IMG/VR virus record: IMGVR_UViG_3300030329_004888
Span: 1-64,000 of that record
Length of the DNA: 64,000 nucleotides
Reading direction: 5' to 3' (one strand)
Origin: a virus
Every line of letters starts with the position of its first letter. Position 1 is the first letter of the stretch. The position numbers were made by a program, and so were the translations under genes. Under the pieces are notes generated by a model that searched no databases, was not told the DNA's origin, and worked only from the letters and a program-made list of their open reading frames with translations. Below, piece after piece: positions 28,237 through 31,515 of the stretch.

Positions 28237-28851
28237 ATGGACAAATCAGACGCCCTGCTGGAGCATGCGCTACGATACGCAGAGATAGGATGGGCAGTAT
28301 TCCCGTGTTCACCTCGAGGGAAAAAGCCCGCGATCTCAGGCGGTCGCGGCTGCTTGGACGCCACAACTAATATCGACCAGATCCGCCATTGGTGGGGGCA
28401 GAATCCTGAGCTCAACATAGGACTGGCTACTGGCGCCCCCAGTGGCGTAGTTGCCGTTGACATCGACAGCCGAACTAATGGACACCATTTCTGGCAGGCC
28501 GCTCTCGATGATCACGGAGATCTGCCCGACGGGGTGTGGATCAGCTTGACCGGCGGCGGAGGATGGCATCATTTTTTTGCGTACGACAACCAAGCTAACT
28601 ATGATATTGCGCCAGGTGTCGAAATCAAATCGACCGGTAAATACGTAATCCTGCCGCCGAGCATACACCCAACCGGAAATGCGTATCTTTGGAACTTGGA
28701 TCACACACCTTTCACCGATGACTACGATACTACTAATGACAACGACCACACCGACAAACAACAACCCAGTGCCGATGCCGCCGTGGCTACGACAGATGAT
28801 ACCGTCCATCCAGATTTCGGACGACTCCGAACCTCGCCGCCCGTCACATAA
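28237..28851 (+). CDS. Primase-polymerase (Prim-Pol, PF09250-like)
   Basis: 204 residues from ATG 28237, with AAGGGAG upstream (the frame is open from 28192). Prim-Pol landmarks: the N-terminal ALRYAEIGWAVFPCSPRGKK-type opening, GGRGCLDAT, the catalytic acidic pair in VVAVDIDSR, SLTGGGGWHHFF, and the GVEIKSTGKYVILPPSIHP segment. It makes primers or copies DNA for phage replication. The frame ends in an Asp/Asn/Thr-rich linker that overlaps the helicase frame, whereas relatives usually have both parts in one protein. Confidence 0.8.
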   Translation: MDKSDALLEHALRYAEIGWAVFPCSPRGKKPAISGGRGCLDATTNIDQIRHWWGQNPELNIGLATGAPSGVVAVDIDSRTNGHHFWQAALDDHGDLPDGVWISLTGGGGWHHFFAYDNQANYDIAPGVEIKSTGKYVILPPSIHPTGNAYLWNLDHTPFTDDYDTTNDNDHTDKQQPSADAAVATTDDTVHPDFGRLRTSPPVT

Positions 28852-30685
28852 TATTTTCGATCGAGCTCTGTCAGGTGAGTTACCCGATCTGGCGGCTACA
28901 GTCCCGCCGGAAGTCGAGCGATACGGACAGTCTGTATTGACAGCAGCGATGGATAGTATCCGCCGAGCGCCAGCGGGAGAGCAAGAGGAAACTCTCAATC
29001 GATCGGGATATCGCGTAGGACAAATAGTCGGCGCCCATGCGATCAACGCTGAGGCAGCGCGAGGCGCTCTCCTGCAAGCGGCTGCTGAGATGCCTGTCCA
29101 CAACCCGAGCGACCCGTGGACTACCGGATTCCTCTACTACAAAATCTCACGGTCGATCAGTCACGGCGCCCTCGATCCAGACCCTATTGGAGGCATCATG
29201 ACACGTCGGCCATCGGACCCGGCGTATGCCTCTACGCCCATCGTCCCGCCAGGGGGGCCTGGTCCCCATCCCCCCATGACAGACATGGGTAATGCCGAGC
29301 GTTTTTGCGAGCGCTGGCAGGAGGAGCTCAAATACTGCACCGAGCTCGCCAAGACGGAGCTCGGGGGATGGATGAGGTGGAATGGGCGCCATTGGCAAAT
29401 CGATGATCTGCTGGGCGTCCAAGAGCTGGCGAAGGATTGCGTTAGGGCTATCGCGCAGGAGTCGCCCCCGGTCATGGGCCCCCCAAAAATGGTGCAGGGG
29501 CTCGCGGTTGACGAGGGTAAAAACCTGACTGCCGAATGGGCGAAAAAGTGCGAGGACGAGACCCGCTTATTAAAGATGATGAGGCTGGCACGATCGATAC
29601 CCCCTATGCCGGTACACGCTGACGCGTTCGACGCGAAGCCAGATCTATTTAACGTCGAGAATGGGACTATCGATTTGAGCAGCGGCACGTTGCGTAGCTC
29701 GAGGCGCACTGATCTCCTCACTCAGTGCGCCCCAGTAACGTATGACGCGGATGCTCAATGCCCTCAGTGGCTGGCGTTCTTGTCCCAGTGCATGCGTGGG
29801 AATGACCGGCTGGTCGAATTCCTCCAAACGTGGGCAGGATACTGCCTGACAGGATCAACGATCGAGCACAAGTTGGTCATCCATTACGGCGAGGGGAGCA
29901 ACGGCAAATCGACGTTCTCTGATGTCTTGGCAACTCTCATGGGACCATATAGCGCAACCGCGGCGGCGAGCTCGTTTATGATTTCATCGAAAGGCTACGA
30001 GGACAACGCCCGTAACGATCTGGCAGCATTGCGATCTACTCGCTCGGTAGGAGTAGTTGAAACTAATGAGACTGACGCCGTTAACGAGGCCCTGCTAAAG
30101 AGGGTCACCGGCGGCGATCCTATAACCGCTCGATTTTTGCATCGTGAATTTTTTACGTTTGTTCCAGGGTTCAAGGTGTCCATGTCTACTAACACCCTGC
30201 CCAACATAGCGGGGATGGATTACGGCACATGGCGGCGCATCTGCTGTATCGAGTGGGGCGTTGTATTCGGCTCCGCGGGAGCTCCTGCGGTAGACAAGGC
30301 CCTCAAAGAAAAATTGCTAACAGAGTTGCCGGGGATTCTGAACTGGGCGCTCGAGGGATGCCGGATATGGAGGACCAATGGGTTATCCATTCCTCCTGAG
30401 ATCGCTGCCACGACCGCCAACTATAGAGAGTCCCAAGATATCTTGGGGCCATTTATCGAGGAATGTTGCGTTGTCGATCCCAATCAAACAGAGCAACAAA
30501 CCCGAATGTATGAATGCTACTTCGCGTGGAACACACACAAAACTATGGGTAAGAAACAATTCTTCGAGCTCTTGTCACAACGCCCAGGAATAGCGCGGGG
30601 GAAATCACAGGGGTTCCGGATCTTCCGCGGCATAACTATCTCGGAGGAGGCCGGGATGCGGTATGTTTCGGATCGATCGTATTGA
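28679..30685 (+). CDS. D5-type replicative helicase (SF3-like), second half of a primase-helicase
   Basis: Open frame of 668 codons, +1 relative to the Prim-Pol frame. Residues about 105-165 (ETLNRSGYRVGQIVGAHAI, then ARGALLQAAAEM) match the region that follows Prim-Pol in fused proteins. A D5_N-like section follows, then Walker A GEGSNGKST (404-412) and later STNTLPNI and RRICCIEW segments of the D5/P4 primase family. Unwinds DNA at the fork. No ATG in the overlap has a good ribosome site, so the start is uncertain: 28718, 28736, 28775 and 28796 are candidates, and frameshifting is possible. Confidence 0.78.
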   Translation: MRIFGTWITHLSPMTTILLMTTTTPTNNNPVPMPPWLRQMIPSIQISDDSEPRRPSHNIFDRALSGELPDLAATVPPEVERYGQSVLTAAMDSIRRAPAGEQEETLNRSGYRVGQIVGAHAINAEAARGALLQAAAEMPVHNPSDPWTTGFLYYKISRSISHGALDPDPIGGIMTRRPSDPAYASTPIVPPGGPGPHPPMTDMGNAERFCERWQEELKYCTELAKTELGGWMRWNGRHWQIDDLLGVQELAKDCVRAIAQESPPVMGPPKMVQGLAVDEGKNLTAEWAKKCEDETRLLKMMRLARSIPPMPVHADAFDAKPDLFNVENGTIDLSSGTLRSSRRTDLLTQCAPVTYDADAQCPQWLAFLSQCMRGNDRLVEFLQTWAGYCLTGSTIEHKLVIHYGEGSNGKSTFSDVLATLMGPYSATAAASSFMISSKGYEDNARNDLAALRSTRSVGVVETNETDAVNEALLKRVTGGDPITARFLHREFFTFVPGFKVSMSTNTLPNIAGMDYGTWRRICCIEWGVVFGSAGAPAVDKALKEKLLTELPGILNWALEGCRIWRTNGLSIPPEIAATTANYRESQDILGPFIEECCVVDPNQTEQQTRMYECYFAWNTHKTMGKKQFFELLSQRPGIARGKSQGFRIFRGITISEEAGMRYVSDRSY

Positions 30686-30698
30686 GAGGAGTATCAAC

Positions 30699-31127
30699 AT
30701 GTCTCATCATACTGTCCAGGAGATTGTGATACCGGGGGAGCTGCCCACGCTTAACGCGGTGTTGGCAGCAACCAAATCGCATTGGAGTATGTATGCGGCG
30801 ACAAAAAAACAAATGACAAACAAGGTCGCGTATCTGGCTCGCAAAGATCTTCGACCGATCGAAAATTCAGTGGAGGTGGAGATAGAATGGACAACCAAAG
30901 ACCGGCGACAGGATCCCGACAATATCAGCTACGGCGCAAAATATCTGCTCGATGGATTAGTAGCAGCGGGAATCCTCCAGGACGACAATCGAAAAATAGT
31001 ATGCTCGATCGCACATCGATTCCCCGAGCCGAGCAAAAAGCATCCCCAGGTAAAGATGGTGCTAACCGAGGTTCAGAAGTGTGGGATGAATGGACAGCCC
31101 AACGGCAAGAAGACCAAGCCCTCATGA
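30699..31127 (+). CDS. rusA: RusA-family Holliday junction resolvase
   Basis: 142 residues from ATG 30699 behind GAGAGGAG. Shows the RusA core DPDNISYGAKYLLDGLVAAG followed by ILQDDN, with the conserved acidic residues and the KDRRQDPDN approach. A dimeric endonuclease that resolves branched DNA before packaging or during recombination. Its stop overlaps the next start as ATGA. Confidence 0.88.
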   Translation: MSHHTVQEIVIPGELPTLNAVLAATKSHWSMYAATKKQMTNKVAYLARKDLRPIENSVEVEIEWTTKDRRQDPDNISYGAKYLLDGLVAAGILQDDNRKIVCSIAHRFPEPSKKHPQVKMVLTEVQKCGMNGQPNGKKTKPS

Positions 31128-31234
31128 AAGCGCGACGCTCGACATGTCGATGCAAAACATGTCGATGCAAAAACTGTAGTTGTGCAAAAGGGAGTCGCAA
31201 ACGTTGCACCTCGTTTGGGAAAAAACTATTATGA
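31124..31234 (+). CDS. 36-aa metallothionein-like cysteine-rich peptide
   Basis: Starts by ATGA overlap with rusA and ends by ATGA overlap with the next gene. The centre is CRCKTCRCKNCSC: six cysteines in thirteen residues, a CxCxxCxCxxCxC array, plus one later cysteine. Lys/Arg fill the rest. That array is the metal-cluster pattern of metallothioneins. In DNA it arises from a 15-base unit, ACATGTCGATGCAAA, repeated in tandem. Coding is supported by the double overlap; metal binding is inferred. Confidence 0.65.
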   Translation: MKARRSTCRCKTCRCKNCSCAKGSRKRCTSFGKKLL

Positions 31235-31515
31235 ATAAATCGAAGACCAACAGGAACCAGAGGCCCATCCAACATGATGGCTACATGCGGTTGGCAACAG
31301 CTGTTATAATTGCTGCCATACGTGCCCTGCAACAGGTACGAAAAAAACTGGAGCAGGATTGGCTGACAACAGACGAGGTGGTCATGCTGGCAACAGAAGC
31401 CATGGAAGCCGAGGAATTTTTGAGAAATCGCGATAGTCCGTACCATCAGATGATACGCTATCGGTATCCGATGCTGGACGAGAAAATCCGGCGCATGTTA
31501 GACGAGATGACATAA
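31231..31515 (+). CDS. Early protein of unknown function (94 aa)
   Basis: ATG 31231 overlaps the preceding stop (ATGA), and the stop overlaps the next start (TAATG). Basic N-terminus, then helical (MRLATAVIIAAIRALQQV, then LTTDEVVMLATEAMEAEEFL), ending in a charged helix. No family recognised. Coupling to rusA suggests a role in recombination or nuclease control, but the sequence gives no direct sign. Confidence 0.6.
   Translation: MNKSKTNRNQRPIQHDGYMRLATAVIIAAIRALQQVRKKLEQDWLTTDEVVMLATEAMEAEEFLRNRDSPYHQMIRYRYPMLDEKIRRMLDEMT

Follow-up and report, generated by a model that had tools for sequence, protein, structure and literature searches.

The Neurospora-type fungal copper metallothionein is a eukaryotic peptide of about 25 residues with seven cysteines, mostly as CxC; its cysteine spacing differs from that of the phage peptide described here, and it is far less basic. 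Cysteine clusters also serve other functions, and CXC-type zinc-cysteine domains that bind DNA exist. Among bacteria, the SmtA, BmtA and Pseudomonas metallothioneins are small cysteine-rich metal-thiolate proteins; PMC7387436 describes them as having a fold and a Zn/Cys/His cluster of about nine cysteines, that of the P. fluorescens Q2-87 protein being Zn3Cys9His.

The window analysed here comprises 64,000 of the 69,507 bases of a virus record, and it contains a 36-codon ORF whose predicted product is MKARRSTCRCKTCRCKNCSCAKGSRKRCTSFGKKLL. The product has seven cysteines and no histidine, and so lacks the SmtA/BmtA-type cluster of about nine cysteines with histidine as described in PMC7387436. 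By count from the sequence, 13 of its 36 residues are Lys or Arg and none is acidic. We propose that this ORF is a translationally coupled gene for a metal-thiolate, mini-metallothionein-like peptide of recent origin, a reading to which we assign a probability of roughly 0.45.

The peptide matched no family in Pfam (E up to 1), PHROG, NCBIfam or PADLOC and no sequence among solved structures, which tells against the proposed gene. No metallothionein family model of the SmtA/BmtA type matched in Pfam or NCBIfam, which is a weak test. In the open full-text papers covered, including passages of PMC9337993, nothing bore on phage or viral metallothioneins, and many journals lie outside that scope. 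A comparison with cellular genomes puts the family searches in perspective. The pattern CxCKxCxCKxCxC (the Lys pattern), which the window array also fits, occurred at a minimum of 118 loci in bacterial and archaeal genomes, and 15 among the matches listed survived mechanical filtering, a group that includes evident repeats. Three of the 15, bacterial ORFs at L405, L429 and L434, encode peptides that look like small metallothioneins, judging by their sequences. They resemble the window peptide in having 33-39 residues with repeated CxCxxC, which supports the coupled micro-gene, whereas they have more cysteines (up to 18) and lie on bacterial contigs. These three peptides are likewise without a Pfam match, so for a peptide this short the lack of a family match carries little information.

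Anatomy of the micro-ORF

The ORF lies between a gene for a RusA-like Holliday junction resolvase and an ORF to which no family was assigned (Table 1). The first-pass annotation had reported that it overlaps both neighbours by ATGA and that it grew from a tandem 15-base unit; the overlaps and the tandem repeat are borne out, the repeat with a 100% match. The overlaps on both sides support the coupled micro-gene. The six-cysteine array begins 7 codons after the ORF's own in-frame ATG; its CRCKT and CRCKN units come from the tandem repeat, and CSC then follows. Reading from the sequence, GGAG stands upstream of the rusA start, and no clear Shine-Dalgarno sequence precedes either the micro-ORF or the next ORF, so that coupling would be the natural reading of the arrangement.

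Table 1. Features of the micro-ORF locus, in window coordinates
Feature	Position	Strand	Basis
D5-type primase/helicase gene, upstream of rusA	28679..30685	+	Pfam, PHROG
RusA-like Holliday junction resolvase gene (rusA)	30699..31127	+	PHROG 1682 E 1.6e-26; Pfam RusA E 0.00031, narrowly below the curated cut-off
Proposed micro-gene, 36-codon ORF with cysteine array	31124..31234	+	Sequence, ORF list, gap shuffles
ATGA overlap, rusA stop / micro-ORF start	31124..31127	+	Sequence
Tandem repeat, 15-base unit ACATGTCGATGCAAA, 2.1 copies, under the array	31142..31172	+	Repeat search, 100% match
CxCxxCxCxxCxC array, CRCKTCRCKNCSC	31145..31183	+	Sequence; pattern counts in window and record
ATGA overlap, micro-ORF stop / next ORF start	31231..31234	+	Sequence
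Next ORF, 94 residues, no family assigned	31231..31515	+	ORF list; Pfam and PHROG searches; relative search

As this anatomy suggests, ribosomes finishing rusA would restart at the shared ATGA, read the 36 codons and restart a second time at the downstream ATGA onto the 94-residue next gene. The peptide produced would be small and soluble, and by analogy with metallothioneins the thiols of its CxCxxCxCxxCxC array would bind zinc(II) or copper(I) under the reducing conditions of the cytosol; on that analogy, metal binding is plausible. The further suggestion of the first-pass annotation, that the peptide may protect nucleases, gained no support. The array would have been built or extended by the 15-base duplication now seen as the repeat. 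Given the absence of the array from the relatives examined, the micro-gene would be an accessory gene of this lineage.

Cysteine-array micro-ORFs in other phages

The pattern CRCxxCRCxxCxC, with Ser also allowed at the Arg sites, matched 120 or more viral loci. By eye, nearly all of the matches listed were off-frame readings of other genes or of repeats, which counts against the coupled micro-gene; L240 was the clearest exception. A strict form of the pattern, CRCKxCRCKxCxC, gave two loci, both rejected as off-frame repeats.

The Lys pattern occurred at 71 loci in viral DNA, several of them near-duplicates of one another. Classed by eye, these comprised 28 self-standing micro-ORFs, 14 longer proteins with the array inside or at the end, and 29 shadows of other genes. 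An in-frame ATG preceded the array in all 28 micro-ORFs, in all 14 longer proteins and in one of the 29 shadows, a separation that is not independent of the classes because the ATG was partly used in assigning them. The longest competing frame spanned 28-107 residues for the micro-ORFs, 69-138 for the longer proteins and 85-1691 for the shadows.

An in-frame ATG likewise precedes the array of the window ORF, matching the loci classed as genes, and this supports the coupled micro-gene. The frames that compete with its array are one of 36 codons on the same strand and an antisense frame of 190 residues that covers the array and spans rusA. The antisense frame is probably spurious; it nevertheless resembles the shadow class and so weighs against the proposed gene. 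With C-x-C-K-x-C-x-C-K-x-C-x-C in a short ORF that has its own ATG, the window ORF would belong by kind to the phage micro-ORFs, which is a matter separate from any claim of descent.

The 28 micro-ORFs represent 14 distinct peptides, for example MCKCKECKCKPCTCNK, MCDCKDCNCKECNC, MNCDCKECTCKECNCNCGCGC and MKNCDCKECNCKNCDCKNCKCCEDN, and they stand beside different genes in unrelated phages. Cysteine-array micro-ORFs exist, then, as a scattered set in phages, and the occurrence of this spacing in unrelated phages, in these 14 peptides and in the 14 longer proteins, supports the coupled micro-gene. The suggestion that similar short frames might be found elsewhere therefore held up, in the form of micro-ORFs that have this spacing and are 12-25 residues long. 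The companion claim, of rarity outside metal-binding peptides, is left unsupported, since in DNA most arrays with this spacing are other genes read out of frame.

Phage micro-ORFs of this set (L086, L089, L099, L112, L113, L128 and others) share with the window ORF the C-x-C-K-x-C-x-C-K-x-C-x-C spacing, a very short length and a position between genes. They differ from it in having only 12-25 residues, with the array usually right after the start, and in carrying Lys, Asp, Glu or Asn between the cysteines where the window peptide has Arg and Thr. Their neighbours are also different, and rusA was never among them at the loci viewed.

One micro-ORF family was also searched for independently of the array, by way of its neighbouring gene. 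This gave 80 loci, of which the 55 with at least 420 nt upstream were examined and the other 25 left out. A short upstream ORF with CxCxxC was present in 20 of the 55; 19 of these have their own start, reading MC, and in the remaining one (L483) a longer ORF terminates in the array. The filter demanded at least four cysteines and would overlook copies at the other 35 loci that had decayed further. The family, MCKCCNCKNCNC and its relatives, consists of cysteine micro-ORFs in marine-type phage contigs, at varying distances upstream of the matched gene. The 19 separate micro-ORFs have 12-14 residues and correspond to 11 distinct DNA sequences, among which a single cysteine loss was seen, at the end of L507. 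In the eight micro-ORFs of 12 residues, the cysteine codons swap between TGT and TGC at two positions and the variable sites shift among Lys, Asn and Asp. Judged from these few changes, the codon pattern is that of a selected cysteine peptide. The presence of separate cysteine micro-ORFs at 19 of 55 loci, together with these synonymous changes, lends support to the coupled micro-gene; what the family supports is the existence of micro-genes of this sort, not the descent of the window's. A maturase gene lies near one micro-ORF family, and T7-like phages carry relatives of it; in the six of 63 matching records that were examined on the coding strand, no comparable micro-ORF was found, and two chance CxC stretches appeared.

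Several longer phage proteins end in cysteine arrays. A protein of about 120 residues at seven loci (L126, L132, L142, L147, L149, L151 and L154) ends in NPNCKCKxCKCKNCGCVPSVE and carries a second motif of the CxxCxGTG type; its L132 copy had no match among named phages. Additionally, two phage proteins of about 100 residues (L109, beginning MPSVSKSQQRFFGAV, and L121, beginning MPAKSEKQRKLFGAV) have long CxC arrays at their ends.

Conservation beside rusA

The first-pass annotation had described the peptide as locked into the rusA operon, and conservation of the array in relatives had been set beforehand as the refutation test. The alignment of rusA provided 80 related loci, some on contigs already met, with at least 400 nt 3' of rusA in 77 of them. 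CxCxxCxCxxCxC was found in none of the 80, in any frame, within stretches of up to 5 kb on each side. The refutation test thus went against the claim, in a sample whose nearest rusA is only about 47% identical to the window's. At two of the loci (L275 and L281) an ORF downstream has CxCxxC of a different kind, and rusA ends in ATGA or GTGA in 36 of the 80.

A second route, to phages with relatives of rusA or the primase, led through 80 retained terminase relatives. It reached rusA relatives in L012, L026, L028 and L047, and a primase with no rusA directly after it in L034. No cysteine array follows rusA in those four loci, in L003 or in L002, which is this record's own second rusA. The claimed lock into the operon is not supported by these results: the peptide is not a conserved partner of rusA, and the absence of the array at the 80 loci and in the nearest phages argues against the coupled micro-gene.

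Searches for close relatives of the window itself returned one distant locus with rusA and none with the primase, with the 94-residue next ORF or, at the nucleotide level, with the window against a phage collection. BLAST with the peptide also found no relative, although the low-complexity filter may have masked the query.

Alternative explanations and the layout of the record

The array exceeds chance expectation for a single gap. CxCxxCxC has two matches in the window, both within the array, against 0.13 expected from shuffles, and it has no match outside the array in the whole record. When the 103-nt gap was shuffled 20,000 times, the frame was open in 5,675 shuffles, and these open frames included none with seven or more cysteines and one with CxCxxCxC. 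With the 15-mer duplication kept, an open frame carried CxCxxCxC in 49 of 20,000 shuffles and the full array in none. That the array was unreached in either set supports the coupled micro-gene, but these figures overstate the surprise because the array was singled out after the whole window had been read; a single duplication accounts for half of the array, which weighs against that reading.

Openness of the micro-ORF, by comparison, is weak evidence, since open frames are cheap here. Beyond its TGA, the frame of rusA runs on without a stop for 36 codons (window 31128-31235) with ordinary composition, KRDARHVDAKHVDAKTVVVQKGVANVAPRLGKNYYE, and the array frame spans 159 codons from stop to stop, mostly across rusA. 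The G+C content of the micro-ORF by codon position (0.30/0.68/0.35) is unlike that of nearby genes, largely because of its Cys, Arg and Lys codons, and counts against the proposed gene. Reading frames in this phage could not be distinguished by synonymous codon usage.

The strongest rival to the coupled micro-gene is a coupling ORF without a selected product. Here the frame would be read only to bring ribosomes from rusA to the next start, and the cysteines would have arisen incidentally, when 15 bases were duplicated by chance in a spacer free to evolve. The absence of the array from every relative examined is consistent with this, as are the common ATGA or GTGA ends of rusA, the ease with which the gap frame stays open, the perfect 15-mer repeat and the lack of a clear Shine-Dalgarno sequence before the next gene. 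However, the full array never arose in an open frame even with the duplication kept, and its spacing is shared with micro-ORFs in other phages that look selected. We consider this rival a serious possibility that falls short of an even chance.

It is improbable that the locus is the remnant of a longer rusA, cut by the TGA, with the array as an off-frame shadow of the former tail. The open rusA frame beyond the stop would fit such a history, as would the predominance of shadows among viral arrays of this kind, but no row of the rusA alignment extends past the present stop and the window protein is the longest of the five.

Still less probable is a DNA element, in which the 15-base direct repeat, which with its flank contains the palindrome CGACATGTCG, would serve as an iteron or binding site, leaving the peptide incidental. 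The direct repeat is perfect and lies between two genes, and the word TGCAAAA, as read from the sequence, is found a third time in another frame. Against this, the repeat has only two copies, with no further copy in the window at up to two mismatches and a single chance-level match at three; RNA structure at the locus gave no signal (z -0.25), and Rfam had no match. A tRNA search was negative as well. A nucleic-acid-binding peptide, whose metal-organised cysteine cluster fixes a very basic chain on DNA or RNA near RusA or the primase, would suit the 13 Lys/Arg without acidic residues, the rusA and primase neighbours and the precedent of CXC-type domains, but with the array unconserved beside rusA and no Pfam domain match it is very unlikely.

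If their products are made and bind metal, micro-genes of this sort would rank with the smallest known in phages for which a chemistry can be predicted, being little beyond a cysteine array, and would point to zinc or copper handling by phages during infection. A wider generalisation is more doubtful, and we offer it tentatively: that unrelated phages repeatedly carry metal-thiolate micro-genes of 12-40 codons between other genes, selected for their cysteines and missed by gene callers, of which the window ORF would be a young, strongly basic, resolvase-coupled variant grown by tandem duplication.

The record itself consists of two diverged, collinear phage-like units that adjoin, window 1-32200 and 32200-64000, the latter running on to 69507. 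Eight protein pairs with 30-46% identity, among them terminase, portal, capsid-region proteins and DNA methyltransferase, occur in the same order in both units. This layout could reflect tandem proviruses, a chimera made in assembly or a duplicated genome. The second rusA of the record lies at 64521-64880 and is 36% identical to the first.
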